From assembly GCA_014584605.1 (NCBI GenBank), contig JACTMO010000025.1:1-38820 (forward strand): a stretch of 38,820 nt of DNA, given 5' to 3'. Each line of letters starts with the position of its first letter. The stretch's first letter is position 1. This document shows positions 8,359 to 38,000 of the stretch, in pieces. This stretch comes from Bacteroidota bacterium. Lineage in GTDB: Bacteria; Bacteroidota; Bacteroidia; Flavobacteriales_F; PHOS-HE28. The position numbers and the translations under genes were made by a program. The notes under the pieces were generated by a model. The model was not told the DNA's origin. It ran no database searches and saw only the letters and a program-made list of their open reading frames with translations.

Positions 8359-11300
8359 CTACGGCGTGGCGGGGCTCCGCGAGAGCCGCCGGACGAGCCA
8401 CGGGAACAGCTCGGCCCGGAGCGCGACCGCGAAGGCCAGCGACATCAACCAGAGCACGGCCGTGTTGGCCCAGAACGTGGGGATCCGAAGCGGGCCCAGC
8501 CACTTGGCCGGTGCATAGAAGTGCGCCCCGAAGAAGCCCATGCCACGGGCTTCCAGATAGATCGGGTCGCTCTTGCGCACCAGGCTGCCCCGGTCCACGG
8601 CGATCACGTTCACATCGTTCTTGTTGGTCACGAACTCGGCCAGGCTCTCGTTGCGGTGGGCATCGAGCAGGGCGAAGTAGGCGGCCCGGTCCTCGGGCCT
8701 CTTGGTGAGGCCGGCGATGAGCGCCTCCTTGTCGCGTTCGGCGTCCTTGTACATGCGCCGGTAATGGACGGTGAGGTCGTTCAGGGCGCGGTCCACGGCG
8801 TCCAGGTCGGCGGGGGCCACACCACCGTCCGCCGTGGTGTGCAGGGCGGGCACCTTCAACCCGCTCACCTGGGCGGCCTCCTTGTGCAGCTCGTTGCGCA
8901 GGAGCTCCAGGTCATGCGCCCGGCGCTCAAGCTGGGCCGGGCCGGTCGCGGGCCTGCGCAGGTCGGCGGCGCGGTGTTGAAGCTCGGGCACCCAGAGGTC
9001 CTTCTTCCAGTTGGCCCCCTTCATGCGCTGGTCCAGGGCATAGAACCTGCGCTCGTAGGCGTTGTCGGTGAACTGGGTCACCGCCAGCCCTTCGTAGGCC
9101 CAGCGGCTGGCCATCACGTTGCCGATCAACGGAACGCCCTGCTGTGAGGCGAACCAGGGATGCAGCTTGTCGAAGCGCACGATGATCCCCGAGAACAGCA
9201 GCTGCGGGATGATGAGCACCGGGATGACGATGTAGATCACCTTGGCGCTGTTGAAGCTGGCGCTGACGTTCAGGCCAAGGACGTTGGCGAAGCAGGAGGT
9301 GCTGAACAGCAGCACCCAGTGCACCAGGGCCATGTCCCGGATGTCCAGCACGCGGTTGCCCACCACCACGAACAGCAGGGACTGGATCGCCGAGATCAGG
9401 AAGAGGATGCCGATCTTGCTGAGCAGGTAGCTGTTGCGGTTCAGCGCCAAGAACTTCTCGCGCTGAAGGATCTTGCGGTCGCGGATGATCTCCTCGGCGG
9501 CCACGGTGAGGCCCAGGAAGAGCGCCACGATCACGGCGATGAAAAGGTATTGCGGGATGTTGTCGTTGGCCCGGTAGATGTACGTGCCTCCCTCCTCGCC
9601 CGCCCCGTGGTAGCGCAGGAAGAAGGCCATCACGAAGGCCAGCACCGGGGCCTCCAGCAGGTTGATCAGCACGTATTGCCGGTTGGCCAGCTTGGCCAGG
9701 ATGTCGCGGGTGAAGAACACCCTGAGCTGCACGGCCCACCCGGGGGCCTTGAAGGTGGAACGCGGCACCTGGGCGGCCTCGGGCACCTGGGCCATGCGGT
9801 TGTCGCGTTGCGCCCGGAACACCTCGTTCCAGGCTTCGGGACTGATGCGCCGCTGGTCGGTCTCCATCCCGTACTCGTCCACCAGCTTGGCCTCCAGGAT
9901 GTTGAAGATCTGCTCGGGATTCACGTTCCCGCAGGCCCTGCACTGGCCCACCTCGCTGTTCACCTGCCCGGTGACGCGCTTGAAGTACACCACCGACTCC
10001 ACCGGGTCGCCGTAGTACACCGGATGACCCTCCTGGTCGATCAGCAGCAGGCGGTCGAAGAGCTTGAAGATGTCCGAGCTGGGCTGGTGGATCACCACGA
10101 ACACGATGCGACCGCGGAGCGCGAGCTCCTTGAGCAGGTCCATGATGTTCTCCGAATCGCGCGAGCTGAGGCCGCTGGTGGGCTCGTCCACGAAGAGCAC
10201 GCTCGGTTCGCGGATCAGCTCCAGGGCGATGTTGAGGCGCTTGCGCTGGCCGCCGCTGATGGTCTTCTCCAACGGTGAACCCACCTTGAGGTCCTTGGTG
10301 TCGTACAGCCCCAGCTGCTGCAGGAGCTTCAGCACCCGGTCGTCGATCTGCGCATCGGTGAGGTCGCCGAAGCAGAGCTTGGCGTTGTAGAACAGGTTCT
10401 GGTGAACGGTGAGCTCCTCGATCAGCAGGTCGTCCTGGCTCACGTGGCCGATGACCCCGCGGATGCGGTCGGCCTCCCGGTGTACGTCCACCCCGTTGAT
10501 GGTGACCCGCCCGGTGGTGGGCCGAAGGTTGCCGTTCAGTACGTTCAACAGGGTGCTCTTGCCGCTGCCGCTGCCGCCCATGATGCCCACCAGCTTGCCG
10601 CTGGTCTCGGCCAGGTCCAGCTCGTGCAGGCCCACCCGCCCGTTGGGGAACGCGTAGGTGATCCCCTCGGCCTTGAACACCAGGGCATCGCGCTGGCGCG
10701 ACCGCATGAAACTGCCCAGGATGTCGCTGTAATAGATCGGGCGGCCGTTCGGCGGGCGGATCGATGAGCCGTTGGTGAGGACATAGTGGTGCTGCCCGCT
10801 CATGGGCTGGCCGTTCAGCAGCACACGGTCACCGCCCAGGTAGCGCACCATGTAGAGGTTCACGTTGGGCACGTGCAGCACGCGCAGTTCGCCCTCCAGA
10901 TGGGCGTGCAGATGGCGGGCCTCGCTCAGCTCACTGCCTGCTGCGGCATCGGCGTACAACAGGTGCGGGGAGTCCACCCGTTCGCCGGCGGCCTGGGCCA
11001 CGAAAGCCTGGCAACGCTCAAAGTCCTCGCGTCCGATGTTGAAGGTCTCGGCCACGGTGTTGACGAACTCCTGCTCCTGGTCGGCCACCCCTCCGGCGTG
11101 GATGAACTCCAGCAGGTGCATGAGCACGATGAACTTCTGGCGCTGGGCGAGCTCCTCGTTCACCTGCACGCAGATGCGCAGCACGCGCACCGAGTTCACC
11201 GACAGGCGCTTGCGGCCCGAACGCCCCCCGCCTCCCGCATGGAAGGCCTCCACCAGGGCATCGAACCGGGCCAGATGCTCCTGTACCTGCTCCGCCGTGA

Positions 11301-12940: not shown

Positions 12941-15658
12941 TCATCGCTTCACCAGCCGACCGGTGGCACGGTGCGCACCCTCCAGGCGATAGAGATAGGC
13001 CCCGGGGGCAAGGTCCCGCCCGTCCACGCGCAGCTGGCCCGTGGCAGCCGCCTCCACCCGGCGCACCATCCGGCCCTGTAGGTCCATCAGGTGCAGCACG
13101 ACCTTTTCCCCGCTCCGGGGCGCGAAGGTCACCGTGAAGTGCTCGTCGAAGGGGTCCGGCATCACCGACACACCGGCGTCCTGGGCGATACCGGCCACCG
13201 CGGTGCCCACCACGCACGGATCCTCCAGCGCCGGCACCGAGACGGCATAGTCCTCGTTGACCACCTCCACCACCTGATCGATGCAGACCAGGTTGTCCGG
13301 GTTCACGAAGTGTACGCGCAGCAGCGGGGCGTAGGCGGTGTGCCGGTCGAAGAGGCTGTCCACATACGAGAGACCGATGACATGACCGGTGCTGCCGTTG
13401 AACGCGGGCGTGATGGGGTAATGCACCGGGTCTCCCAGGTTCTCCACCCCTGTGATGGTGATGCCGCTGAAGCGCAGTTCATAGCCCAGCATCTCCTTGG
13501 CGGGGTTGCGCACATGCACGTCCAGGTACCCCGCGCCCGGATCGAAGGCCCCGATGGTGAAGGTCACCGTATCGTAGATGTTCTGCATGTCCACCACGGG
13601 GAAGCTGCAACGGGTGTCCATCAGCATGCTGTCGCCCAGCAGATGGGCCTGGTGGCAGTAGGCGATGAGCGCCGCATCGGCCACGGTGAGCGTACCGTCG
13701 TCGTTCACATCGGTGCAGGGTGCGGCCGTGAGCGAGGCGTCCAGGATGCCTGCGACATATCCCGCGGCATCCACCGTGTCGTTGTCCGCGTCCACGTCCA
13801 GGTCGCCGATCAGCCGGGTGCCGGCGCACACACCCTCGCAATCGAACTGGGCGCTGCCGTAGATCTGGCCCAGGCAATCCACGTACGTCGGGCAGTTCTG
13901 CTGTACGGTCACCGATAGGTTGGGGTTGTGCGCGATGAGGATGCAGGCCTGGCCCCAGTTGTTGTAGATGTCCATCTCATAGCGGCCCAGCGCATCGGGG
14001 CTGTTGTCCCAGTTGGTGCGCACCACCAGGGTGTAACGGCCATCGGGCACGTCGGTGATGTCGATCCACTGACAGGCCAGCCCGCTGCTGTAGATGTCGC
14101 CACAGCCCATGCTGATGCCCATGTTGCTGCACCCGTACTGCGCCGAACCACCGCCGCTGCACTCCAGGTCCATCACGCAGAAGCCGTTCTTGAAGCCCTG
14201 GGCCATGGCCTGGCCGAGGCTGTCGTACAACAGGTACTCGGCATACCCCTCGTAGTGCCAATGGTTGTGGCAGGCGTCGTACTCGAACTGGTCGGGGTTG
14301 TTGCCGGGGCTTCCGATGTAGTAGTCGGCGAAGCCGATGTTCTGGATGTGCGTGGTGAAGCGCACCAGTTCACGGGTGCCGAAGCCGGCCAGGCAGCCTT
14401 CCTGGATGTAACAGTCGTTGGCGTTCACCACCATGGTCTGGACATGGATGGAGTTCTGTAACACGTCGCTGCGCACGGTGAGGTCCGGGCCCAGCGGGCA
14501 GTTCGGGTCGCCCCAGGGGATGCAGCTGCCGTCGTCCACGGCCGCCAGCGGGTTGAAGTTGCACGAGGCCGGGTCGGTGCAGCCCGCAATGGGACCGGCA
14601 TAGGTCAGGGTCCAGTCGATGGGACCGCCCGCGCAGCTCGTGTCGCTGTCCCCGATGCGGATGTAATAGGTCACGCCCGCTTCGAGCAGGGCATTCACCT
14701 GGGCCTGAAGGCCGCATCCGCCCTCATCGTTGTCGTAGAAGATGGTGGCGATGTTGGTGTCGTCCCAGATCAGGCCGATGCAATGGTCATAGACCCAGAT
14801 GCGGGTGTCGCAGGTGGCGGTGCCGCAGGTGCTGATGGTGTACACGCCGTTGCTGTCGGGCACGAACACGTACCAGGTGTCGTCGTCCACGGTGCTGTGC
14901 GCGCCCTGTTCCACCGTGTCCGGCGACAGGCAGCCGAAGCCCGGCGGGCAGTTCCACTCCACGCGGTCGCTGAGGTCGAAGTCGCCGCCCTGGGCGATGA
15001 GGGCACCGTCGTAATAGAGCCAGTAGCCGCCCGGCGCGAAGATCCCGTCGCCGTACGAGTCGTACATGGTGAACACCAGGCACGCGGCCGTGTCCACGCA
15101 CAACGCCGAACCGGAGGAGGTGCCCGAGGCCAGCATCGCCCCGTTGCCGTTCCGCAGGTCCCAGCTTATCTCGTTGGGGTAGGCATCGGGCACGATGTTC
15201 ACCTGCACGGCCACCTCCCCCGCCCCGCAGGCCGGCGGCGGCGGGGGGAGGTTCGCGCTCAGGCTCCACACCACCGTGTCGCCCGCGCACTGGTTCTGGT
15301 AGTCGCCCACGCGGATGAACACCTGCTGGCCCGCGCTCAGGTCCAGCACGATCGTGCTCTGCAGGGCGCAGGCGTCGTCGTTGTAGGCCAGGGCGTTGAG
15401 GCCTTGCTCGTTGGTCACCAGCCCGGTGCAGTGGTCATAGGCCCAGAGCTTGGTGTCGCAGCTGCTCTGCCCGCAGGTGCTGATGGTGAACTGGCCCGTG
15501 GCAGGCGCGGTGTACAGGTACCAGGCGTTGTCGAAGGGGGCCGTATGGGTCCCCGGGGACACGGGAATGGCGTTGGCGCACGAGGAGCCGACCTGGGCAC
15601 CGACGGAGAGGGCGAAGGCGGAGAACAGCAGGCAGGGTATCGCGCGCATGGGGTGCAT
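12941..15658 (-). CDS. Secreted lysyl-oxidase-domain protein with dockerin-like segment and T9SS sorting domain
   Basis: 905 aa. A signal peptide (about 1-21) is followed by two PPC-like cysteine-bearing modules (about 25-135 and 240-355) flanking a beta-sandwich (about 147-235), then a GCTDPASCNFNP...DDGSC motif (359-379). The lysyl oxidase domain (about 390-576) has the copper motif CHNHWH (H464, H466, H468). It also has the GFKNGFC lysine (K490) and GCGDIY...CQWIDITDV with Y523. These align with human LOX HxHxH, K320 and Y355, the last two forming the lysine tyrosylquinone cofactor. A dockerin-like calcium segment (about 619-668) and a T9SS C-terminal domain (about 829-905, ending RLVKR) follow. 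It would be exported and could oxidise amines or crosslink proteins outside the cell; activity is inferred. A second ATG at 15649 is possible. Confidence 0.88.
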   Translation of the reverse strand: MHPMRAIPCLLFSAFALSVGAQVGSSCANAIPVSPGTHTAPFDNAWYLYTAPATGQFTISTCGQSSCDTKLWAYDHCTGLVTNEQGLNALAYNDDACALQSTIVLDLSAGQQVFIRVGDYQNQCAGDTVVWSLSANLPPPPPACGAGEVAVQVNIVPDAYPNEISWDLRNGNGAMLASGTSSGSALCVDTAACLVFTMYDSYGDGIFAPGGYWLYYDGALIAQGGDFDLSDRVEWNCPPGFGCLSPDTVEQGAHSTVDDDTWYVFVPDSNGVYTISTCGTATCDTRIWVYDHCIGLIWDDTNIATIFYDNDEGGCGLQAQVNALLEAGVTYYIRIGDSDTSCAGGPIDWTLTYAGPIAGCTDPASCNFNPLAAVDDGSCIPWGDPNCPLGPDLTVRSDVLQNSIHVQTMVVNANDCYIQEGCLAGFGTRELVRFTTHIQNIGFADYYIGSPGNNPDQFEYDACHNHWHYEGYAEYLLYDSLGQAMAQGFKNGFCVMDLECSGGGSAQYGCSNMGISMGCGDIYSSGLACQWIDITDVPDGRYTLVVRTNWDNSPDALGRYEMDIYNNWGQACILIAHNPNLSVTVQQNCPTYVDCLGQIYGSAQFDCEGVCAGTRLIGDLDVDADNDTVDAAGYVAGILDASLTAAPCTDVNDDGTLTVADAALIAYCHQAHLLGDSMLMDTRCSFPVVDMQNIYDTVTFTIGAFDPGAGYLDVHVRNPAKEMLGYELRFSGITITGVENLGDPVHYPITPAFNGSTGHVIGLSYVDSLFDRHTAYAPLLRVHFVNPDNLVCIDQVVEVVNEDYAVSVPALEDPCVVGTAVAGIAQDAGVSVMPDPFDEHFTVTFAPRSGEKVVLHLMDLQGRMVRRVEAAATGQLRVDGRDLAPGAYLYRLEGAHRATGRLVKR

Positions 15659-15905: not shown

Positions 15906-18287
15906 TCAGCGCATCAGGGTGACGTGACCGAAGCCTTCCTTGACGTCGCCTGCGATGGCCTTCACGCGGTAGCGGTACACGTACACGCCGGAGGGCAGGG
16001 GAGCGCCGCCCACCGTGCCGTCCCAGGCCAGGCCCAGCTCGTTGGCCTCGTACAGGGTGGCGCCCCAGCGGTCGTGCAAGCGGATCCAGAACTCCTTGAC
16101 CCCGATGCCCACCGCCTGGAAGGTCTCGTTGAAGCCGTCGCCGTTCGGGGTGAAGCTATTGGGGATGTACAGGTGGAACTCCGGGTCCACCAGGATGCTG
16201 CGCATCGTGCTGTCCCGGCATCCCAGCGTATCGGCGATCACCAGTTCCACTTCGTAGAGGCCGGGTTCCGGATAGATGGTGGCCGGGTTCTGCTCCTGGC
16301 TCTCCAGGCCCGCGGCCCCGAAGTCCCACCACCACTGGGTGGCACCCAGGGAAAGGTCCACGAAATGGATCGGGGCGTTGTTCACCCAGTAGGACCCATC
16401 GACGGTAAAGGAGGCGTGCGGTGCGTTCACACCGAGGCCGCTCTGGTCCACCGCCGTGATCCCGCAGGCATCGGTGACCGTCAGGGTGTAAATGGTGTTG
16501 CTGTTCGGGTGCGCGGCCAGCGTGTCCGCCGTGCCGCCCGGTTCCCACAGATAGCTGTACGGTGCCTGACCGAAGGTTGGCAGTGCCCGCAGCACGGCGG
16601 TGTCGCCGATGCAGATCACCGTGTCCGGCGCGATGCGCACCTGCACCGTGTCGTACGCCACGGTGACCGTCACCTGGTCGCTGCTGTCCTCCCCGCAGAG
16701 ATCGGTCACCGTCACCGACCAGCTGGCCGTGACGGGCGGTGCCACCTGCACCGTGGCGGCCGAGCCCAGCCCGCCGCTCCATGCGAAGGTGTATCCCGGT
16801 GTGCCGCCCTGCACCACGGCGGTGAGCTGCACCGGGGTCTGTGGGCAGGGCACCAGCACATCGCTCTGGATGGTCACCGTCAGCGGCGGCACGATGGGCA
16901 CGGTCACCGTCACCTGGTCGCTGGCGGTCACCACGCCGCAATCGTCGTTCACCGTGAGCGTGTAGGTGGTGGTCTGGCCGGGGGTCACCCAGCCTCCGAG
17001 CTGCCCGTCCGGCACGCCCTGGTCCCAATCGAGGGTGTAGTTCCCGAAACCGCCCGTGACCGTGGCCGCGATGAAGGTGCTGTCCACGCACTGCACGGTG
17101 ACATCGTTGCTCAGCACCACGTTGATGTCCGGCGCTTCCTCGATCAGGATCACGACGCTCACGGTGTCGCCGCCGCAGGCGGTCTCGTTGATCACCATGA
17201 GCACGATGGTCTCCTGCCCCTCGGTGATGGCGTCCAGGATCGCGTCGAACTGCACCTGGGCCGAGTCCTGCCCGGGCTGGAAGATCACCTGGTCGGGCAC
17301 GGTCGTGAAGTCCGCGCCTTCGGTGGCGCTGCCGCCGACCACGATGTCCACCGTGTCCGCATCCACCAGCGGGCCGCCGCGCACCAGATGGAGCAGGGCC
17401 GTGCCGCAGCCCTCGTAGAACAGGCTGTCCATGCCGCCCGAGACCACTTCGCCCACGATGGCCACCTGGTTGCTCTGGAAGCTGCCCGCCTCCAGGAACA
17501 CGGCGCTGTCCCACACCTGGTCGTTGGCGTCGCCCACCACGAGCTTGATGTGATAGGTCTCCCCGCAGATCACCTGGGCCAGCGCCTGCATCACCACCGT
17601 GAGGCCATCGTACTGCACATAGTACGGGTTGCTGTTGTACGGCGGCGTCGTTCCATCGCCGTTGTCCACGTAGTACTGCGGGTTCACCGTGGCGTTCACC
17701 GTGTTGATGGTCACCGGGTCGGTGGTGCCCGGGATCAGCGCGATGTTGATGGCGTTGTTGCTGAAGGGGCCGGTGATCCCCGGGCCGCTCAGGAAGAAGC
17801 CGAACGCATCGTTGATGCTGTTGACGAACTCCAGGTATTCGTCCGAGGCGAACACGAAGTTGAACTTCAACGAATCACCGGTGGGCACGAAGTCGAACTC
17901 CAACACCGCGCAATCGTTCACGTCCTGGATGGAAGGCTGGCTCTGCTGGGCGAGCAGCAACAGGTCGGGGTCCTGAACGCTGGTCCCCACCAACGGCACC
18001 GAGGAACTGCCGGAATCGTTCGGCCCCAAGGCATTGCTGATGCCGCCGGTGGCCAGGATCAAGCCGGTGGGGATGCCCACGTTGGCGTTGGCGCTGTTGA
18101 ACTCCCCGGCCTGCATGGACACCGTGTTGCCCGGCAGCCCGTTGAAGGTGATGTTGGTGGCCGTGACCCCTCCGCCCAGCAGCACGCTCTGCACCAGCTG
18201 GGCCGGGGTCTGCGTGTTGGTGAGCACCAACTGGGCGCGGGCCGGGGTCAGCACCAGGAGGGTCGGCAGCAGCAGCAGGCGCCACAT
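15906..18287 (-). CDS. Choice-of-anchor-L protein with Calx-beta-like, Ig/PKD-like and CHU_C domains
   Basis: 793 aa. Signal peptide MWRLLLLPTLLVLTPARAQ (1-19). Residues about 30-275 form a choice-of-anchor-L domain (GIPTGLILATGGISNALGPN, FNFVFASDEYLEFVN, NDAFGFFLSGPGI). A Calx-beta-like repeat follows (about 285-385, GSATEGADFTTVPDQVIFQP). Three Ig/SprB-like repeats come next (about 390-465, 466-545, 546-622), then a PKD-like domain (about 625-700). The gliding-motility-associated C-terminal domain CHU_C (about 708-793, IPNSFTPNGDGFNETF) ends it. CHU_C proteins are exported by T9SS and stay at the cell surface. This is probably an adhesin or surface-filament protein. The start at 18287 begins the signal peptide; longer frames enter the divergent priA promoter region. 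Confidence 0.9.
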   Translation of the reverse strand: MWRLLLLPTLLVLTPARAQLVLTNTQTPAQLVQSVLLGGGVTATNITFNGLPGNTVSMQAGEFNSANANVGIPTGLILATGGISNALGPNDSGSSSVPLVGTSVQDPDLLLLAQQSQPSIQDVNDCAVLEFDFVPTGDSLKFNFVFASDEYLEFVNSINDAFGFFLSGPGITGPFSNNAINIALIPGTTDPVTINTVNATVNPQYYVDNGDGTTPPYNSNPYYVQYDGLTVVMQALAQVICGETYHIKLVVGDANDQVWDSAVFLEAGSFQSNQVAIVGEVVSGGMDSLFYEGCGTALLHLVRGGPLVDADTVDIVVGGSATEGADFTTVPDQVIFQPGQDSAQVQFDAILDAITEGQETIVLMVINETACGGDTVSVVILIEEAPDINVVLSNDVTVQCVDSTFIAATVTGGFGNYTLDWDQGVPDGQLGGWVTPGQTTTYTLTVNDDCGVVTASDQVTVTVPIVPPLTVTIQSDVLVPCPQTPVQLTAVVQGGTPGYTFAWSGGLGSAATVQVAPPVTASWSVTVTDLCGEDSSDQVTVTVAYDTVQVRIAPDTVICIGDTAVLRALPTFGQAPYSYLWEPGGTADTLAAHPNSNTIYTLTVTDACGITAVDQSGLGVNAPHASFTVDGSYWVNNAPIHFVDLSLGATQWWWDFGAAGLESQEQNPATIYPEPGLYEVELVIADTLGCRDSTMRSILVDPEFHLYIPNSFTPNGDGFNETFQAVGIGVKEFWIRLHDRWGATLYEANELGLAWDGTVGGAPLPSGVYVYRYRVKAIAGDVKEGFGHVTLMR

Positions 18288-18293
18288 GGCGCC

Positions 18294-18301
18294 GCAAGGT
18301 A
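18294..18301 (-). promoter_or_regulatory. -7-like box for the choice-of-anchor-L gene
   Basis: TACCTTGC on the minus strand, 6 nt before the ATG at 18287. It is a near match to TAnnTTTG, and supports this start over longer frames. Confidence 0.35.
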
Positions 18302-18333
18302 CGGCCGTCGTTCCGCCGGCCCCGGCGACATCC

Positions 18334-18351
18334 CCCACCGGCCCCGGTGGG
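18334..18351. promoter_or_regulatory. Perfect 8-bp palindrome in the divergent priA intergenic region
   Basis: CCCACCGG (18334-18341), two bases CC, then CCGGTGGG (18344-18351). It directly abuts the priA -7 box and lies 33 bp from the divergent -7 box. It could be an operator, or a hairpin at the 5' end of a transcript. Its role is not known. Confidence 0.35.
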
Positions 18352-18359
18352 TAAACTTG
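18352..18359 (+). promoter_or_regulatory. -7-like box for priA
   Basis: TAAACTTG, 7 nt upstream of the priA ATG at 18367. One mismatch to TAnnTTTG. Confidence 0.4.
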
Positions 18360-18366
18360 CGCGTCC

Positions 18367-20817
18367 ATGCCGCACTTCGCCGACGTCATCCTGCCTGCGG
18401 CCGTACCAGGGACCTTCACGTATGCCTTGACGGAGGAACTCGGCACGGTGTTGCCCGGCATGCGCGTGGTGGTGCCCTTCGGCGCGGGCCGCAAGCTGTA
18501 CGGCGGCCTGGTGCTGCGCGTGCACGACGAGCGCCCCGCGGGCCGCACGGTGCGCCCGGCGCTCAGCGTGCTGGACCCCGCGCCGCTGCTCGCCCCGGTG
18601 CACCTGCGCCTGTGGGAACGGATCGCCGACCACTACCTGTGCACCCTGGGCGAGGTGATGCTCGCCGCACTGCCCGGCCCCCTGGTGCTCACCAGCGAGA
18701 CCCGCGTGACGGCCACCGCCCACAGCGCCGACCACGTGGCGCACACCCCCCGGGCCGCCCTGCTGCTCGACGCGATGGAACGGCGCCCGTCCATCACCCT
18801 GGCCGAGGCCGGCGACCTGTTGCAGGTGAAGGACCCGGTGCGCGCCATGAAGCAGCTGCTCGATGCGGGCGCCGTGGCCCTGGAGGAGGAGCTGCGGTCG
18901 CGGCCCGTGGAACGACTGGTCCGGTATGTGACCCTCGCGCCCGAAGCGAAGCAGGAGGCCGCCCTGCACGCCTGGTTCGACCGGCTCGAAAGGGCACCCC
19001 GGCAGCTCGCCCTGCTGATGAAGGGCATCGAGCTGGGCCGCTGGCTCGACGGCGGCGGTGCCCCGGTGGTCGAGGCCCGCCTGTTGAAGGCCGCCGATGC
19101 CACGCGACGCCATGTGGAGGAGCTCGTGCGCAAGGGCCTGTTCGCCGTGGAGGAGCATCCGGCGGACCGGCCCGCAGGCCGCGACGGCACCGGCATCCCG
19201 GCGCTCTCGTCCGCACAGCAAAGCTGCCTGGAACAGGTGCGGGAGGCCCTGCACCGGCACCGGTGCTGCCTGCTGCAGGGCGTCACCGGCTCGGGCAAGA
19301 CCGAGGTGTACGCGCACCTCATGGAGGAGGCCGTGCGGCAGGGAGGCCAGGTGCTCTACCTGCTGCCGGAGATCGCCCTCACCACCCAGCTCATCGCCCG
19401 GTTGCGCGCCCGCTTCGGCGACCGCGTCAGCGTGTTCCACAGCCGCCTCACCACCCGCCAGCGCGCCGAGCTCTGGGCCGGCATAAACCGCGACCCCGCC
19501 GCGCATCCCATCGTGGTGGGCGCGCGCTCGGCCCTCTTCCTCCCCTTCCACCGGCTGCGGCTGGTGCTGGTGGACGAGGAGCACGACCCCTCCTACAAGC
19601 AACAGGACCCTTCGCCGCGCTATAACGCCCGCGACATGGCCATCGTGCTGGGCGAGCTGGTGGACGCCGCCGTGGTGCTGGGCTCGGCCACGCCTTCGAT
19701 GGAGACGCTGTACAACGCCCGCCAGGGCAAGTACGGCCACGCCCTGCTCGGCGAACGCTTCGGCGACAGCGTGCTCCCCCAGGTGGAGCTCATCGACCTG
19801 CGCGAGGCCCACAAGCGCAAGCGCATGCAGGGCCACTTCTCGCCCGAACTGCTGCAGGCCGTGCAACAGGCCGTGGACCGCCGCGACCAGGTGATCCTGT
19901 TCCAGAACCGCCGCGGCTATGCTCCCGTGTGGCAGTGCGAGCAATGCGCCCACGTGCCCAACTGCGCCCACTGCGACGTGAGCCTCACCTACCACAAGAG
20001 CAGCCACGACATGCGGTGCCACTATTGTGGGCGTGGCTACCCGCCGCCGGTGGAGTGCCCCTCCTGCGGCAGCCGCCGCCTGCGCATGATCGGCCTGGGC
20101 ACCGAGCGCATCGAGGAGGAGCTCGCCGTGGCGCTACCCGAGGTGCGCGTGGCCCGCCTCGACCAGGACACCGCGCGCGGCAAGCACGCCCTGGAGCGGC
20201 TGATGCACGACTTCGCCGAAGGGCGCATCGACGTGCTGGTGGGCACCCAGATGGTGACCAAGGGCCTGGACATGGAGCGGGTGAACACCGTGGGCATCCT
20301 CAGCGCCGACCGGCTGTTGCGCTTCCCGGACTTCCGGGCCCACGAAAGGGCCTTCCAGCTCATGAGCCAGGTGGCGGGCCGCAGCGGCCGGCGCGGGGTG
20401 CAGGGACGCGTGCTCATCCAGGCCTTCGACGTGGCGCACCCCGTGCTCGGCCACGTGCTCACGCACGATGTGGACGGGTTCTACGAGCGGGAGATCGGCC
20501 ACCGCCAGGCACATGGCTATCCGCCCTTCTCCCGGCTGATCCGCTTCACCCTCAAGCACCGTTCGGAGGAGCGGGTGGAACAAGCCGCGCGCACGCTCGT
20601 GGACCTGCTGGGGCCCGGCTTCGGCGATCGTGTCCTGGGCCCCGAGACCCCCACCGTGGCCTGGGTGCGCGACCTCCACATCCGCAACGTGCTGGTGAAG
20701 CTGGCCCGCAGCGCACACACGCGGGAGAAGGAGCTGGTGCGCGATGCGCTGGAACGCCTGCCGGACGCACTGCCGCAAGGCCGCGTACGGCTCATCGTCG
20801 ATGTGGACCCCGCCTGA
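18367..20817 (+). CDS. priA: Primosomal replication restart helicase PriA
   Basis: 816 aa, the normal length. The N-terminal 3'-DNA-binding domain occupies about 1-105 (FTYALTEELGTVLPGMRVVV). The superfamily 2 helicase has Walker A GVTGSGKT (305-312), motif II DEEH (403-406), GSATPS (439-444) and motif VI QVAGRSGRRG (668-677). Eight zinc-binding cysteines of the PriA cysteine-rich region are all present: C524, C527, C533, C536, C551, C554, C564, C567. PriA recognises stalled forks and D-loops, unwinds lagging-strand DNA and loads the replisome through DnaT/DnaB-type partners. The gene stands alone. Its stop is 6 nt from the stop of the convergent hydrolase gene at 20824. A -7-like box lies just before the ATG. 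Confidence 0.97.
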   Translation: MPHFADVILPAAVPGTFTYALTEELGTVLPGMRVVVPFGAGRKLYGGLVLRVHDERPAGRTVRPALSVLDPAPLLAPVHLRLWERIADHYLCTLGEVMLAALPGPLVLTSETRVTATAHSADHVAHTPRAALLLDAMERRPSITLAEAGDLLQVKDPVRAMKQLLDAGAVALEEELRSRPVERLVRYVTLAPEAKQEAALHAWFDRLERAPRQLALLMKGIELGRWLDGGGAPVVEARLLKAADATRRHVEELVRKGLFAVEEHPADRPAGRDGTGIPALSSAQQSCLEQVREALHRHRCCLLQGVTGSGKTEVYAHLMEEAVRQGGQVLYLLPEIALTTQLIARLRARFGDRVSVFHSRLTTRQRAELWAGINRDPAAHPIVVGARSALFLPFHRLRLVLVDEEHDPSYKQQDPSPRYNARDMAIVLGELVDAAVVLGSATPSMETLYNARQGKYGHALLGERFGDSVLPQVELIDLREAHKRKRMQGHFSPELLQAVQQAVDRRDQVILFQNRRGYAPVWQCEQCAHVPNCAHCDVSLTYHKSSHDMRCHYCGRGYPPPVECPSCGSRRLRMIGLGTERIEEELAVALPEVRVARLDQDTARGKHALERLMHDFAEGRIDVLVGTQMVTKGLDMERVNTVGILSADRLLRFPDFRAHERAFQLMSQVAGRSGRRGVQGRVLIQAFDVAHPVLGHVLTHDVDGFYEREIGHRQAHGYPPFSRLIRFTLKHRSEERVEQAARTLVDLLGPGFGDRVLGPETPTVAWVRDLHIRNVLVKLARSAHTREKELVRDALERLPDALPQGRVRLIVDVDPA

Positions 20818-23892: not shown

Positions 23893-24936
23893 ATGGCCCG
23901 CCGCATCCTCGCCCTCCTGCTCCTTCCCGCCCTGCTCGCCGCCTGCAGCACCGAACTGGAGGTGAACGCCCCCTACAAGGACATCACCGTGGTGTACGGC
24001 CTGCTGTCCACCCGCGCCAGCGATGGCCAGAGCGAACAGACGCGCCATTACCTGAAGATCAACAAGGCCTTCCTGGGCGAGGGCGACGCCTATGTGTATG
24101 CGCTGGTGCCCGACAGCACCGAATACGACCCCGCCGACTTCCAGATGATGCCGCGGGTGGTGGACCTGGACGACGGCGCCGAACACCTGCTGCGGGACAC
24201 GCTGATGCCGCGTGAGCCCGGGGTGTTCAACTCGCCCATGCACCAGATGTGGTGCTTCGACGCCACCCTGGACCCCGAGCACCGGTACGCCGTGCGCATG
24301 AAGGTGCGCGGCAACGAGGTGAGCGCCGAGACGCCCATCGTGAACCCCCCGGCCTATCAGTCGGGATTCCTGCAGACCAACTCCAACAGCAAGCTGAACC
24401 TGATGCTGGGCAACCAGTACAACACGGTGGACATGGACTTCCGCAGCGGTCGGGATGCCCGCCGCTACGACGTGAGCTACCGGGTGCGCTACGCCGAGGA
24501 CCGCTCCGGCACCCTCACCGAGGAGTCCTACACGGTGTTCCTGGCCTCGGTGCGCACCAACCACCTCAACGGCGGGGAGGAACTGCAGGTGGCCATCAGC
24601 GGGGAAGCCTTCTACCAGAACCTGGCCCACGCCATGGAGAACGACCCGACCATCACCCGGCGGATCTATCGCGGGCTGGACATCCTTTTCGCAGCGGCCA
24701 GCGACGAGCTCTCCACCTACCTCACCCTGGCCCAGCCCGTGAGCGGCATCGTGGAGGAACGGCCCGAGTACACCAACATCCAGAACGGCTACGGCCTGTT
24801 CGCCGGGCGCCATTTCCAGACGGCCGTGGGCGTGAAGCTGGGCGATGCCTCCCTGGTCCAGCTGGTGGAAGGCCCCTACACCGCCCCCTATCAGTTCTGC
24901 ATCGAGGGCAACGGGCCGCCCTTGGGCTGCGACTGA
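23893..24936 (+). CDS. Putative lipoprotein, DUF4249-like
   Basis: 347 aa. Signal sequence [18 protein letters not shown] with lipobox (LLAAC, C18). The mature part starts [20 protein letters not shown], is soluble and beta-rich, and ends in [16 protein letters not shown] and a short cysteine-bearing tail ([13 protein letters not shown]). The opening (an ELEVNAPY strand followed by VVYGLL) and the late GYGLFAGR motif recall the DUF4249 lipoproteins of Bacteroidota, often envelope proteins accompanying outer-membrane systems, but no TonB receptor is in the window. I give the family only as a likeness. The start is set by the signal sequence and by the -7 box 16 nt upstream. Confidence 0.78.
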
Positions 24937-24940
24937 CGAT

Positions 24941-25013
24941 CTGTCTTTCTGTCAGGTCCCTTCGGGCGCTGTGACCGCCACGGTCCGCCCACCTTGTCAG
25001 CTTTCGGCAAAGC
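24941..25013 (+). promoter_or_regulatory. Upstream region of dnaK with CTGTC repeats
   Basis: The gap before dnaK (24937-25063) holds CTGTCTTTCTGTCAG (24941-24955) and another TGTCAG (24995-25000). A small hairpin, GCTTT-cggc-AAAGC, lies at 25000-25013. No TAnnTTTG box is visible. The repeats are candidates for a heat-shock operator or an alternative promoter, but I know of no exact consensus match. Confidence 0.3.
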
Positions 25014-25063
25014 CGGCCGAATGGCATGCGCCTTGACCGGCCGGGCCGAACGAACCAACGACC

Positions 25064-26965
25064 ATGAGCAAGATCATCGGCATCGACCTGGGCACCACCA
25101 ACAGCTGCGTCTCCGTGATGGAGGGCGGCGAACCGGTGGTGATCGCCAACAGCGAAGGCAAGCGCACCACCCCCAGCGTGGTGGCCTTCGTGGAGGGTGG
25201 CGAGCGCAAGGTGGGCGACCCGGCCAAGCGCCAGGCCATCACCAACCCCAAGAACACCATCTTCTCCATCAAGCGCTTCATGGGCAACTCGTACGACGAG
25301 TGCCCCAAGGAGATCGGGCGCGTGCCCTACACCGTGGAGCGCGGTCCCAACAACACGCCCCGCGTGCAGATCGGCGACCGCCAGTACACGCCGCAGGAGA
25401 TCAGCGCCATGGTGCTGCAGAAGATGAAGAAGACCGCCGAGGACTACCTGGGCAGCACCGTCAGCGAAGCGGTGATCACCGTGCCGGCCTACTTCAACGA
25501 CGCGCAACGCCAGGCCACCAAGGAGGCCGGCGAGATCGCGGGCCTCAAGGTGCGCCGCATCATCAACGAGCCCACGGCGGCCGCGCTGGCCTATGGGCTG
25601 GACAAGAAGCACAAGGACCAGAAGATCGTGGTCTTCGACTGCGGCGGGGGCACCCACGACGTGAGCGTGCTGGAGCTGGGCGACGGCGTGTTCGAGGTGA
25701 AGGCCACCGACGGCGACACCCACCTGGGCGGTGACGATTTCGATCAAGTGGTCATCGACTGGCTGGCCGAGGAGTTCAAGGGCCAGTTCAACATCGACCT
25801 GCGCAAGGACCCCATGGCCCTGCAGCGCCTCAAGGAAGCCGCCGAGAAGGCCAAGATCGAGCTCAGCTCCACCACCAGCAGCGAGATCAACCTGCCGTAC
25901 ATCATGCCGGTGGACGGCATCCCGCAGCACCTGGTGCGCAGCCTCACCCGCGCCAAGTTCGAGCAGCTCGCCGACAGCCTCATCAAGCGCACCATCGCCC
26001 CCTGCGAGAGCGCCCTCAAGAACGCCGGGCTCAAGACCAGCGACATCGACGAGGTGATCCTGGTGGGCGGCAGCACCCGCATCCCGGCCATCCAGGAAGC
26101 CGTGAAGAAGTTCTTCGGCAAGGAGCCCAGCAAGGGCGTCAACCCCGACGAGGTGGTGGCCGTGGGCGCCGCCATCCAGGGCGGGGTGCTCGCCGGCGAC
26201 GTGAAGGACGTGCTGCTGCTGGACGTGACCCCGCTGAGCCTGGGCATCGAGACCATGGGCGGGGTGATGACGCGCCTGATCGAGGCCAACACCACCATCC
26301 CCACCAAGAAGAGCGAGACCTTCAGCACGGCCAGCGACAGCCAGCCCAGCGTGGAGATCCACGTGCTGCAGGGCGAACGCCCCATGGCGGCGGGCAACCG
26401 CACCATCGGCCGCTTCCACCTGGACGGCATCCCGCCCGCCCCGCGCGGCGTGCCGCAGATCGAGGTGACCTTCGACATCGACGCCAACGGCATCCTGCAC
26501 GTGGGCGCCAAGGACAAGGCCACCGGCAAGGAGCAGAGCATCCGCATCGAGGCCAGCAGCGGCCTGGGCAAGGACGAGATCGAGAAGATGAAGAAGGAGG
26601 CCGAGGCCAATGCCGACGCCGACAAGGCCGCCCGCGAACGCGTGGACAAGCTCAACGCCGCCGACAGCCTCATCTTCCAGACCGAGAAGAGCCTCAAGGA
26701 GTACGGCGACAAGATCCCGGCCGACAAGAAGCAGCCCATCGAGGACGCCCTCACCCGCCTGAAGGACGCCCACAAGGCCCAGGACGCCGAGGCCTGCGAC
26801 AAGCTGGTGGCCGAGCTCAACACCGCCTTCCAGGCCGCCAGCCAGGAGATGTACAACGCCGCCCAGCAGGCCCAGGCCAACGGCGGTGCCGCCCAGGAGC
26901 CCGGCAAGCCCGCGGACGCCGAGGTCACCGACGTGGACTTCGAAGAGGTGAAGGACGGCAAGTAA
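25064..26965 (+). CDS. dnaK: Chaperone protein DnaK (Hsp70)
   Basis: 633 aa, full length. The nucleotide-binding domain (about 1-385) begins [20 protein letters not shown]. It carries the phosphate-2 loop as [19 protein letters not shown] and the adenosine motif [10 protein letters not shown]. The GTHDVS form (His for the usual Phe) is common in Bacteroidota. The hydrophobic linker is [16 protein letters not shown], followed by a beta substrate-binding domain to about 510 and a helical lid. The C-terminus is [14 protein letters not shown]. It binds exposed hydrophobic peptides with ATP-driven cycles, together with DnaJ and GrpE, neither of which is in this window. Monocistronic, with a strong terminator 49 nt downstream. 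Codon use is strongly biased to G/C-ending codons, as expected for high expression. Confidence 0.98.
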
Positions 26966-27013
26966 GGCCCAAGCAGCGATCGTACCGGACCACCGGCGAC
27001 CTCCGCAACATGG

Positions 27014-27047
27014 AACGAGCCCCGCGATGTGCATCGCGGGGCTCGTT
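27014..27047 (+). terminator. dnaK terminator
   Basis: Perfect 16-bp inverted repeat, AACGAGCCCCGCGATG (27014-27029) and CATCGCGGGGCTCGTT (27032-27047), 49 nt after the dnaK stop. It ends GCTCGTTCATTCC on the plus strand, so a short T-containing tail is present. The strongest hairpin in the window. Confidence 0.85.
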
Positions 27048-31626: not shown

Positions 31627-32009
31627 GCCGCGCACGGCCCGGCACCCACGCTCCAGGCACGGGCTCCTGATCGGGTTGCCTCCTGTTGATAACTATTTTT
31701 TCCTTGCGTCATACTACAGAACGAAATAGTATTGACCGGCCGCTTTCCTACCATTCCGAACCATTCACCCCAGAACCATGCGCCCCGGCGACCTGCCCAC
31801 CCAAGCGACCGCAGGCCCGTGGCCGAGCCACCCCACCGATACACAGCCCCACTTCCATCCCAACGGCGTTCCCCTGCATGGGCCTTTTTCCGGGGAATTG
31901 CGAACGAGAGCCACATGACAGGTGGACCGCCCCACAGCGGTAGGCCTTACCCCGGCAGCCAGCCCGAAGCTGGCGATCGATCTGAACCCCCTAACCAAAA
32001 CCCTTGTCC
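31627..32009. other. Intergenic region upstream of the giant adhesin gene
   Basis: About 380 bp with no credible gene. It contains an AT-rich patch (31684-31735) that is unlike the surrounding GC-rich DNA. In the patch are the inverted TTATCAACAG site (31683-31692) and inverted repeats ACTATTT (31692-31698) / AAATAGT (31724-31730) and ATACTA (31711-31716) / TAGTAT (31727-31732). These are plausible promoter/operator parts for the gene at 32010, though the distance is about 300 bp. Nothing further is recognised in 31736-32009. Confidence 0.5.
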
Positions 32010-35000
32010 ATGAATTGTCGACCTGACCCGATGACACCCCGGCGAACGCGCTGGTGGTGTATCCCGATCGTCGCGACGGCCCTGCTCACCCTGGCAGGAG
32101 GGACCGCCCGTGCCCAATGCACGAACACCTCCTCCTACGGTTCAGCTACTGCCGCTGGCATGCTCGTCGGTGAAACAAGAAACTTCAGTACGTGCAGCTA
32201 CCGGAGTGAGTACTCAACGCTGAGCAATGCGGTGATCGGCAACCTGTACACCTTCACCCTTGTAGGTGGTGGTTACATCACCGTCCACTCCGGCACGTAC
32301 AACGGTCCGGTGCTCGCGCATGGTCCCTCTCCTCTCTCCGGGGTGATCGCCGACAACGCGACACTCTACCCGCACTGGAACGTCAATGCCAGCTGCGCGA
32401 CCGATGCTGGATGCAAAACCACCCAGGTGACCAACAACGGCCCCAGCTCCACCTGTTCGGGCACGCCCAACAGCGGCACGGCCAGTGGCCCGGCCAACGT
32501 GTGCACCGGCTCCACCCCCACCCTCAGCGCCACGGGCCTCACCCTTGGAGTGGGCATCAGCTACCAGTGGGAGGAATCGCCCGATGGCGTGTTCGCCTGG
32601 GCCGATGTGATCGGCGGCAGCGGGGCCACCACCCCCAACTACACCACCAGCCCGGTCATGGGCGCGCGCCACTTCCGGATCCGCACCATCTGTAGCGCCG
32701 GCCCCGATACCGCTTGGTCCAACGTGGTGTCGATGAGCACCTTCTCGGATAACTGCCAGTGCGCAGCCTATCCCTCGGTCTTTGCGTCCTACACGGCCGA
32801 TGAGGACATCAGCAACGTGACGGTGGGTACGCTGAACAACAGCAGCGATTGCATCAGCCCCGCACCGGGAACCGGATCCCTGGTGCAACGCTACGCCAAC
32901 TACACCGGTTGGGTAGCAGCACCCGACCTGGAGCAGGCCTCCACCGTGAACTTCAGCCTCACGATGACCACCTGCAACAACAACTACGACAACGGCTTCC
33001 AGCTGTACATCGACTGGAACCAGGACGGCGACTTCCTGGATGCCGGCGAACAGGTGTACAACCAGCCCACCTCAGCCAACGGCAACCACACCAAGACGGG
33101 CAGCTTCGTGGTGCCCATCGCGGCAAGCCTGGGCAGCACCCGCATGCGCGTGGTGGTGGTGGAGGGTACCTTCCCCACGGGCACCAACTACGCCCACACA
33201 ACATACGGCTGGGGTGAGACCGAGGACTATTGCGTGAACGTGACGGCCGCCGCCGGTTGCGTGGGCGTACCCAACAACGGCACGGCCAGCGGTCCGGCCA
33301 ACGTATGCGACGGCACCACCGCCGCCCTCAGCGCCACGGGCCTCTCCTTCGGCCTGAACATCAATTACCAGTGGGAGGAATCGCCCGATGGCCTCAGCGG
33401 CTGGGGCGATGTGATCGGCGGCAGCGGGGCCACCACCCCCAACTACACCACCAGTCCGGTGAGCGGCACCCGCCACTTCCGCATCCGCACCATCTGCACC
33501 ACCGGTCCGGACACCGCCTGGTCCAACGTGGTAACGGTCAGCTCCTTCACCGACGCCTGCCAGTGCGCGGCCTATCCCTTGGTCTTTGCGTCCTACACGG
33601 CCGATGAGGACATCAGCAACGTGACGGTGGGCACGCTGAACAACAGCAGTGATTGCACGAACCCTGCACCGGGTGCCGGCTCCCTGGTGCAACGCTACGC
33701 CAACTACACCGGCTTCGTGGCCGCACCCGACCTGCAGCAGGCCTCCACCGTGAACTTCAGCCTCACGATGACCACCTGCAACAGCAACTACAACAACGGC
33801 TTCCAGCTGTACATCGACTGGAACCAGGACGGCGACTTCCAGGATGCCGACGAACAGGTGTACAGCCAGACCACGGTCACGAACGGCAACCACACCGAGA
33901 CGGGCAGCTTCGTGGTGCCCATCACGGCAAGCCTGGGCAGCACCCGCATGCGCGCGGTGGTGGTGGAGGGTACCTTCCCCAACGTAACCAACTTCGCCCA
34001 CACAACATACGGCTGGGGTGAGACGGAGGACTATTGCGTGAACGTGACGGCCGCGTCGGCCTGTTCCGCTCCGCCGACCCCCGGCAGCACCACGGGGCCT
34101 GCCAGCATCTGCCCCGGCGTGTCCTTCACCTTGGGCCTGCAGAACCTGCCTTCGGAAAGCGGCATCACCTACCAGTGGTATGTGAGCACGGACGGTGGCT
34201 TGACGTACAGCCCGGTGGGAAGCAACCTGCCGACCTACGATGCCACCCAGACCGTGGCCTCGTGGTACTACTGCGATGTGACCTGCACCAACCCGGGCGG
34301 CGGCACCACCCAGAGCACCCCGATCGAGGTGACCATGAACTCCTTCATGGCGTGCTACTGCACCAGCGGTGTGGGCCCCATCAGCACCATTGACAGCCAG
34401 GTGCTGAGCGTGAACCTCACCGGTGTACCCGGCAGCATCAACTACACCCATGCCTGCCCCGGCGTTGCCGGTGTGCAGGACCTCACGGCCCTCACGGCCG
34501 ACCTCTTCCTGGGTGATCCCTACACCTTGAGCGTGAACTTCGGCACCTGCGGCAGCAACTATACCGGCGTGGGCGAGGTGTGGATCGACTACGACCACAG
34601 CGGCAGCTTCGAGCCGGGTGAATCCCTCGGCACGCAGGGCCCTGCGTCGCCTCCGGGGCTTGCCACCATGAACTTCACCGTGCCGCTCACGGCCCAGGTG
34701 GGCATCACCCGTATGCGCGTGATGCAGTGGGAAGGCGGTACGCTCCCGCTGAACCCCTGCGGCAGCTTCTACTACGGCTCGGTCATGGACTTCAGCGTGA
34801 ACATCAACGTGAGCACGCCTTGCAGCGGTGTGCCCACCCCGGGCAACACCCTGTCCACCGAGACCCTGGTCTGCGCCAACGAGTCCTTCACCCTCAGCCT
34901 GCAGAACCTGATCATGGGCACGGGTGTATCCTACCAGTGGGAGACCTCGCCGGACAACATGACCTGGTCGCCCGCCGTGGGCGCGCCGCCCAGCTCGGTG

Positions 35001-38000
35001 TGGACCACCACCCAGTCGGCCGATACCTGGTACCGTTGCGTGGTGACCTGCTCGGGCTTCGGCAACGCGGCCAGCACGCCGATCCAGGTGCTGATGGACA
35101 CCCCGTCCGCCTGCCTCTGCATCCCGTCCTACACGTACGGCATCCAGTCCGGTGACCTGATCAGCGAGGTGGAGATCCTGGGTACCACGCTGCTGAACAA
35201 CACCGGCACGGCCGTATCTCCGAACATCTCCTACACCTACTACACGGGTCAGCCGAACTACACGGCCAGCCTGGTGGCGGGCACCACCTACCAGATCGAG
35301 GTGACCATCGGCAGCTACGCCGGCCAGTATGTGGCCGTGTGGATGGACCTGGACGAGAACGGCATTTTCGATACCCCTGGTGAATTGGTGGGTTCCTACG
35401 GCCCGATCAATACGGCCTTCGGCTCGGCCACCTTCCCGCTCGTCATCCCCTGCAACCCGGTCCCGGGCCTGAAGCGGATGCGCGTACGGGAAGTCTGGGC
35501 CTCGATGCCGACGGACCCCTGTGCCCAATACGCTTTTGGCGAGACCGAGGACTACGACGTGACGATCCTGCCGCCGCCGCCCTGCCCCGCGCCGGGCAAC
35601 CTGCAGGCGGGCAACGCCACCGGCAGCACGGTGGACCTCACCTGGAACGTGGCCTGCACGGAAACGGCCTGGAACATCGAGTGGGGCCTTGCCGGCTTCA
35701 CGCAAGGCACGGGCACCCTGGTGGCCGTGAACACCACGCCCTTCCTGCAGCTCACCGGCCTGAGCCCCGGCGTGGCCTATGAGGCTTATGTGCAGGCGGA
35801 CTGCGCGGGCAACGGCACCAGCACCTGGGTGGGCCCTGTGGCCTTCAGCACCTGCAACGGGGTCTGCGCCGATGCCATCCCCGCCGTGCTGGGCGTGAAC
35901 ACCACCGGCCCGATCGACTGCGGCAACGGCGCCAGCAACCTGGCCTTCACGGGCGCCACGCATGCGCGTTGGTTCACCTACACGGCCACGGGCACCGGTG
36001 TGCTCACCGCTTCGGCCTGCGGCGCGGTGAACACCGGGAACAACGACACGCGCCTCACCATGCACGGCGGCACCTGCGGCTCGCTCTCGGTGCTGTCCTC
36101 CAACGACGATGGCTGCACCTGGGCCTACGGCGGCGGGGCCTACGCCAGCACCGCCTCGGTGTTCGTGACCCCCGGCCAGCAGGTGTTCATCGAGTGGGAC
36201 GACTACTGGAACCCGGCCGGCTTCACCTGGGAGCTCACCTTCGCGCCCTGCACGCCCGACCCGGCCGACCTGTGCGTGAATAAGAACCCCGCGCTCTACC
36301 CGGTCACCATCGGCAACCCCGCCCAGGTGTTCACCGGCACCCTGGATTGCCAGCAGCAGGACGGCATCTCGCCGAACCCCTTCTTGCAGGCCACCGGTTG
36401 GGAGTGGGTCGCCTTCGAGCTGACCCAGTGCGCCAACGTACACATCAGCTACTGCGGCACGGCCAACTTCCAGTACGGCGCCCTGAACATGTACGGCGAC
36501 TGCGGCACCCTGTTCATCAACTCGCAGTCCTACGAATTCACCTCTTGTGTGGACGGCAACCCGACGATCCATTTCGAGGACCTGTCCCCGGGCTACTACT
36601 ACTACCCGGTGCTGTGGTCGCTGCCGCTGGGCATGACCGGACCGTACCAGATCAACGTGACGGCCACTGCGCCCACGAACCCGTGCGCGCCGAACATCAA
36701 CTGTGCCGGGGCGCTGCCCTTGACCTGCCCGGGCTCGGTGACCGGCAATACGAACAACCAGTTCCCGACCCTGCCGGCCACGGCCTGCCCCTTCACGGGC
36801 GGCCCCACCAGCGGCGGCTCGCTCTGGTACACGTACACCGCGGCGGCCGATGAGAACATCATCCTCAGCACCTGCGGTCTGACCACCGTGTTCAACACGC
36901 GCATCAGCGTGTTCACCGGCCCGGACTGCAACACCCTGAGCTGCTACACGCTGAGCGACGACTTCGGCGGGGCCTGCACCAACCGCAGCCAGCTGGAGTT
37001 CTTCGCCCAGAGCGGCCAGACGTACTACATCGCCGTGCACAGCCCGTCGCCGTTCGATGACGGTGCCTTCGAGCTGCAAGTGGGTTGCGGAGCCGTGTGC
37101 CCGCGCCCGAGCAACGACGATTGCAGCACGCCCACGGTGCTCACGAGCTACCTGGCCGACGGCAGCGGTGTGCTGACGGGCGGTGACAACACCTGCGCGC
37201 AGAACGACGCCTTCACCACCTGCAGCCCGGTGCTCAACAACCAGGGCATGTGGTACAGCTTCAACAGCGGGGTGAACAGCATCCACGTGCTCGACCTGCT
37301 GGGCACCAGCCAGAACGGTGCGCTCACCGCCACGCAGTTGAACTACGCGCTCTTCAGCGGCACCTGCGCCAACCTGGGCGCCGCCGGTGAAGTGGCCTGC
37401 GACGACGACGGCGACGGTTACGACATCGTGCTGAGCGGTCTGACCACCAACACGGACTACCTGCTGTACGTGTACAACCCGGGCGCCACCGGCTTCGAGG
37501 GGACCTTCGAAGTGATGGTGGAACACCCGGCGCTGGACGACGCGGGCATGGGCGCCGTGCTGGCCCCGACCGGCCTGGTGTGTACCTCCTTCCTGGAGCC
37601 CCAGGTGGAGCTGATCAACTACGGGGAGAACACCCTCACCAGCGTGGACATCGTGTACGACCTGGACGGCGGCCTCACCGGTCCGTTCACCTACAACTGG
37701 ACCGGCAGCCTGCCTTACGGGGACACCGTGGTGGTGAACCTGCCCGGCTTCACGTCGCCCTACGGCACGCACACCCTGAACGTGACCACCCAGAACCCGA
37801 ACGGGCAGCCGGATGGTCTCACGGCCAACGACCTGGTGAGCGAGCCCAACATCGACGTGTCGGGTGAAACGGTGGTGGTGCGGATCACCACCGACAACGA
37901 CCCCTCGCAGATCTTCTGGGAGATCCAGGACCAGGGGCTCAACCCGGTGGCCACCTCGCCGTCCTACGGTGCGGCCAACACCACGGTCGATGTCACGAGC

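Follow-up and report, generated by a model that had tools for sequence, protein, structure and literature searches.

The lysyl oxidase (LOX) family includes the copper enzyme that cross-links animal collagen. Prokaryotic members were known before but have been called enigmatic, and those reported are mostly simple; in the survey of Grau-Bove et al. 2015, which already recorded LOX in Bacteroidetes, this applied to all architectures but three (PMC4448552). HTU-LOX of Haloterrigena turkmenica is a copper-dependent, BAPN-sensitive amine oxidase that is active in vitro (PMC6452851). A literature search found no paper on lysyl oxidase combined with type IX secretion (T9SS), most subscription journals lying outside its reach, and none that treated lysyl oxidase with dockerin, the co-mentions being passing and, by their titles, unrelated.

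The window analysed here, a stretch of 38,820 nucleotides from a Bacteroidota genome, contains a LOX gene referred to as LOX-A, whose predicted parts are listed in Table 1. A predicted model of the full-length protein, built with 40 homologues, had a mean pLDDT of 84.9; residues 1-23 were unstructured and of low confidence. The neighbouring gene (15906-18548, minus strand) encodes a protein of T9SS type B that contains choice-of-anchor L, SprB, Calx-beta and PKD domains. Elsewhere in the window, a 770-aa ORF (24722-27034, minus strand) matched Pfam NAD-GH with 578 bits, and lies antisense to an HSP70/DnaK gene (25064-26962, plus strand, 875 bits); the NAD-GH match probably reflects a spurious antisense family. 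A 2205-aa protein (32004-38621, plus strand) contained four GEVED domain stretches (PF20009, E = 1e-68), while a 1712-aa ORF antisense to its gene produced no match in a profile search.

Table 1. Location of LOX-A and its predicted features in the window
Feature	Residues	Window position	Strand	Basis
LOX-A gene, lysyl oxidase family, predicted secreted	905 aa	12941..15658, including stop	(-)	
Signal peptide	about 1-21	15596..15658	(-)	Sequence MHPMRAIPCLLFSAFALSVGA; hydrophobic N-terminus, judged by inspection
First PPC-like beta domain	about 24-135	15254..15589	(-)	Fold match to ColH domain
DSYGDG module	144-238	14945..15229	(-)	All-beta; kept across homologues
Second PPC-like beta domain	240-355	14594..14941	(-)	Sequence repeat of first (TISTCG..CDT) and model
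Short Cys segment, GCTDPxxCNFNPLA	359-382	14513..14584	(-)	C360, C366 and C379 invariant (40 homologues)
Lysyl oxidase catalytic domain	388-600	13859..14497	(-)	PF01186 and LOXL2 fold
Copper motif H-x-H-x-H	464-468	14255..14269	(-)	LOXL2 alignment and conservation
H464		14267-14269	(-)	
H466		14261-14263	(-)	
H468		14255-14257	(-)	
Predicted LTQ lysine	K490	14189..14191	(-)	On LOXL2 K653
Predicted LTQ tyrosine	Y523	14090..14092	(-)	On LOXL2 Y689
Dockerin-type two-loop calcium module	600-685	13604..13861	(-)	Invariant Asp, helices, Dockerin_1 matches of homologues
Cohesin-fold domain	about 686-822	13193..13603	(-)	Fold match in full-length model
T9SS type A C-terminal sorting domain	833-905	12944..13162	(-)	TIGR04183 and fold

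Profile, alignment and model together confirmed that LOX-A is a true lysyl oxidase homologue with the LOXL2 fold. The Pfam profile PF01186 (Lysyl_oxidase) matched residues 391-553 with 118.3 bits, against a cut-off of 20.4 (E = 4.7e-34). Human LOXL2 (5ze3) was the sole significant PDB match of the single protein sequence by phmmer (E = 3.3e-24), with 59 of 159 aligned residues identical (37%), and was again the strongest match when a full-length profile was compared with the PDB (E = 3e-36). A model of the LOX domain alone (AlphaFold2, pLDDT 74.8) retrieved LOXL2 far ahead of all other matches (Foldseek E = 1.9e-12; Z = 18.5 against 5ze3 across 200 residues), and in the full-length model residues 389-587 superposed on LOXL2 at 2.3 A across 188 residues (Z = 20.5). 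The three copper histidines aligned with H626, H628 and H630 of LOXL2, and the lysine and tyrosine with those that form lysine tyrosylquinone (LTQ); all five residues were identical in 102 of 102 homologues, a degree of conservation that chance comes nowhere near explaining. A smaller alignment (A1) comprised eleven LOX domains from the window's genus and other families. The first-pass annotation had claimed LOX homology with a complete copper and quinone residue set, proposing a PF01186 search and a superposition on human LOXL2 as checks; both analyses bear the claim out, and its residue numbers (H464, H466, H468, K490 and Y523) were exact.

The resemblance extends to the cysteine positions. 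Eight cysteines of LOX-A (C416, C422, C463, C494, C500, C510, C519 and C529) aligned with C573, C579, C625, C657, C663, C673, C685 and C695 of LOXL2, which make up four of its five mapped disulfides (PMC9180022, PMC9694262). Two more, C572 and C589, were invariant in homologues and are likely to be the fifth disulfide pair of the domain, but lie beyond the range of the phmmer alignment. The lysine and tyrosine of LTQ stand 16.6 A apart in the LOXL2 precursor crystal (PMC9694262), and the distance between K490 and Y523 in any model is therefore not decisive. The position of LOXL2 His652, mutation of which drops LTQ below 50% (PMC9694262), is occupied by F489 in LOX-A.

Outside the catalytic domain, the first PPC-like region (approximately residues 21-136) matched the collagen-binding domain of ColH (3jqw) with Z = 11.2 (rmsd 2.4, 102 residues); this modelled likeness is one of fold, and does not demonstrate collagen binding. 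In the dockerin-type module, the calcium-loop aspartates D619, D630, D650 and D661 were invariant across 40 homologues, and the model placed helices at 628-639 and 659-674. Pfam Dockerin_1 was sub-threshold in LOX-A itself, but 6 of 40 homologues gave a match; within the window's own genome it exceeded the threshold only in LOX-B, a paralogue on another contig (C17:1660-2862) that carries the motif CHGHAHY. Between this module and the C-terminal tail sits a further domain, which at about residues 692-822 resembled the cohesin CaCohA2 (6kgf_C) with Z = 11.5 (rmsd 2.8, 123 residues), with about 20 more cohesin entries listed. The sequence profile PF00963 (Cohesin) produced no match anywhere in the genome, and the domain is therefore labelled 'cohesin-fold' rather than a member of PF00963.

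The C-terminal tail matched TIGR04183 (T9SS type A sorting domain, NCBIfam) over residues 833-904, with 26.8 bits against a cut-off of 23, while Pfam PF18962 scored slightly below its cut-off (25.4 against 27). Its modelled fold resembled the C-terminal domains of mirolase (Z = 9.6) and RemA (Z = 8.9), and a recognised type A tail was present in 31 of 40 homologues. Since the genome also encodes SprA (2565 bits) and has 143 matches to type A tails, export of LOX-A as a T9SS type A cargo is well supported by sequence evidence. A subset of homologues (L035, L036, L038, L043, L046, L048, L050 and similar) ended in LLVLSAFGT.C instead of the typical tail, which resembles a second dockerin-like C-terminus. 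PPC-like modules, a dockerin-like calcium segment and a T9SS sorting tail had all been named in the first-pass annotation and all found support here, the calcium segment through its aspartates and homologues; the cohesin-fold domain had been absent from it.

The dockerin and cohesin-fold regions occurred as one cassette. When residues 600-820 were used as a query, the only matches in the window's genome, which is 99.9% complete, were LOX-A and LOX-B, whose cassettes are 38% identical. A dockerin-cohesin profile run on 14 more genomes, spread over several families, gave 16 matches, each in the same frame and directly downstream of one of the 16 full-length LOX domains, and partial PF01186 matches in these genomes had no cassette. 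Across the 15 genomes, therefore, 18 of 18 matches lay just downstream of a full LOX, and 18 of 18 full LOX carried the cassette; LOX, dockerin and cohesin form a strict unit, which is new here. Because no other protein with the cassette was present in the tested genomes, its action, if it has cohesin-dockerin function at all, would be confined to a single molecule or to contacts among LOX molecules.

A full-length LOX was found in 23 of 35 genomes of the window's genus, or 26 when partial matches were included, and a scan of GTDB genomes identified at least 417 loci encoding relatives. Of these, 80 loci were fetched, and nearly all were labelled Flavobacteriales, Saprospiraceae, Chitinophagales or unclassified Bacteroidetes. 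When 395 genomes were sampled evenly across the phylum, just 4 had a match, the window's own among them; the family is patchy across Bacteroidota. The expectation that such a protein would be unusual in this lineage was not supported, given its frequency in the genus, the GTDB loci and the 2015 report (PMC4448552), although matches were few in the phylum-wide sample. PF01186 scored 118 bits for the LOX-A family, against 51 for Streptomyces and 39 for Gemmatirosa, a lead that comes from these two comparators alone. Plasmid copies were limited to divergent ones in Streptomyces and Gemmatirosa, and a search for viral or phage copies found none.

Phylogenetic analysis resolved two paralogous clades in the genus, LOX-A and LOX-B, and clades mostly tracked taxonomy. 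For the origin of animal LOX, a question in which the Bacteroidota group is worth including, the LOXL2 and Gemmatirosa branches were very long and could not be placed in the tree. One record, titled Euryarchaeota archaeon isolate SP189 (L035), contained a LOX that groups well inside the Flavobacteriales sequences; this MAG is likely to be mislabelled or mixed. A third, more divergent LOX-like class (class C) had a partial PF01186 match, its own H-x-H-x-H, lysine and tyrosine, and a T9SS tail. Its member in the window's genome (PTHGHTHY...GYKLGFC...GYTDVY; locus L109, contig C44, 6213-8396, minus strand) adjoins a divergently oriented gene of the copper-binding MbnP family (8403-9206, plus strand; PF20243, E = 1e-22). 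Five genomes of the genus retain the pair, close to DUF5777, cytochrome c and 4Fe-4S/TPR genes, and a link of class C to copper through MbnP is possible.

The catalytic residue set is a strong argument for a copper/LTQ amine oxidase. On sequence grounds it is highly probable that LOX-A has amine oxidase activity, and sequence and models combined give good confidence that it is a secreted, catalytically competent lysyl oxidase. HTU-LOX was inactive in its native host (PMC6452851), so that conserved residues are no guarantee of a working enzyme in vivo. Under the proposed mechanism, the signal peptide would direct LOX-A to Sec export, its disulfides would form in the periplasm, and the type IX system would then export it, using the C-terminal domain as the sorting signal, for attachment to the surface or release. 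By homology, H464, H466 and H468 would bind Cu(II), while K490 and Y523 would be oxidatively joined as LTQ; the quinone would act on primary amines, whether peptidyl lysine, polyamines or small amines, yielding aldehyde, ammonia and H2O2. Binding to a target polymer or surface is the probable role of the PPC-like domains, and the dockerin-cohesin pair would belong permanently to the enzyme and act inside the molecule or from one LOX to another. No conserved gene neighbours hinting at a substrate or partner were found, beyond synteny within lineages.

Whether such an enzyme would mainly cross-link macromolecules is a separate matter, and this role was judged to fall somewhat short of an even chance. 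It competes with an extracellular enzyme that would deaminate free amines, polyamines or the amino groups of decaying protein for nitrogen, or harm competitors with peroxide, and would cross-link no matrix; this was considered doubtful, but with an appreciable probability. HTU-LOX oxidises many small amines, even glycine (PMC6452851), and collagen-like GXY runs of at least 10 triplets were not found in the window or the fetched loci. T9SS cargos were lysine-poor, with a median of 0.85% Lys in the window's genome and 1.6% in the other sampled genomes (L124-L182); they would be poor targets, which counts against self cross-linking of a T9SS coat. Against this, few lysines per target suffice for cross-links, and the PPC-like and cohesin-dockerin modules suggest attachment to polymers, or assembly, as in enzymes directed at macromolecules. 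LOX-A itself has only 5 lysines, and its homologues hold approximately one quarter of the lysine of neighbouring genes; depletion as self-protection from LOX was rejected as an explanation, other cargos of the same genome being about equally poor. A more elaborate form of cross-linking, in which the cohesin of one exported LOX docks onto the dockerin of another, either LOX-A or LOX-B, in a self-assembling, calcium-dependent array that covalently cures extracellular matrix, is unlikely; were it true, the array would be a bacterial parallel to the cross-linking of animal matrix.

Two other explanations were considered. F489, at the place of LOXL2 H652, is consistent with a non-catalytic protein, either a LOX-fold scaffold or a copper binder at the surface, whose fold was kept for structure or metal capture, but K490 and Y523 would be superfluous for binding copper alone, and their invariance alongside the histidines makes this reading quite improbable. 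A recent transfer from a eukaryote, or a contaminated assembly, might be suggested by the identity to human LOXL2; yet relatives occur at hundreds of GTDB loci in taxon-coherent clades, and the protein bears a bacterial signal and a T9SS tail, with flanking genes conserved in sister MAGs, leaving this explanation scarcely credible. LOX-A is best regarded as a likely surface or secreted LTQ/copper amine oxidase, as predicted from its sequence, for which cross-linking is possible.

The result is a large, coherent bacterial LOX family, with the catalytic and disulfide set of LOXL2, a predicted secretion route that would explain how it leaves the cell, and a strict LOX-dockerin-cohesin unit. It offers a testable system for the role of bacterial LOX, with cultured hosts that include Phaeodactylibacter luteus and Lewinella cohaerens. 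The prokaryotic LOX of Grau-Bove et al. 2015 belong to the same Pfam family and keep the copper and LTQ residues (PMC4448552); compared by the survey's description, and with overlap in membership possible, the LOX-A family differs in being a T9SS cargo of large, multidomain build whose dockerin-cohesin block is invariant. HTU-LOX is a distant, archaeal member that shows that microbial LOX can be active, and its description does not include T9SS or dockerin-cohesin parts (PMC6452851). Cellulosomal and non-cellulosomal cohesin-dockerin pairs share the cohesin fold and a two-loop dockerin-type module with LOX-A, but LOX-A carries the two together with an oxidase in a single polypeptide, with no other cassette protein in the tested genomes and no Pfam Cohesin match. 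RemA and mirolase, both T9SS type A cargos, have the C-terminal sorting domain in common with it by profile and fold, while the cargo in LOX-A is a predicted amine oxidase. LOXL2 shares the fold, three copper histidines, the LTQ lysine and tyrosine and 8 of 10 domain cysteines by alignment; it differs in having His652 rather than Phe, and in placing SRCR domains upstream, where LOX-A has PPC-like domains before the catalytic domain and dockerin, cohesin and T9SS tail after it.
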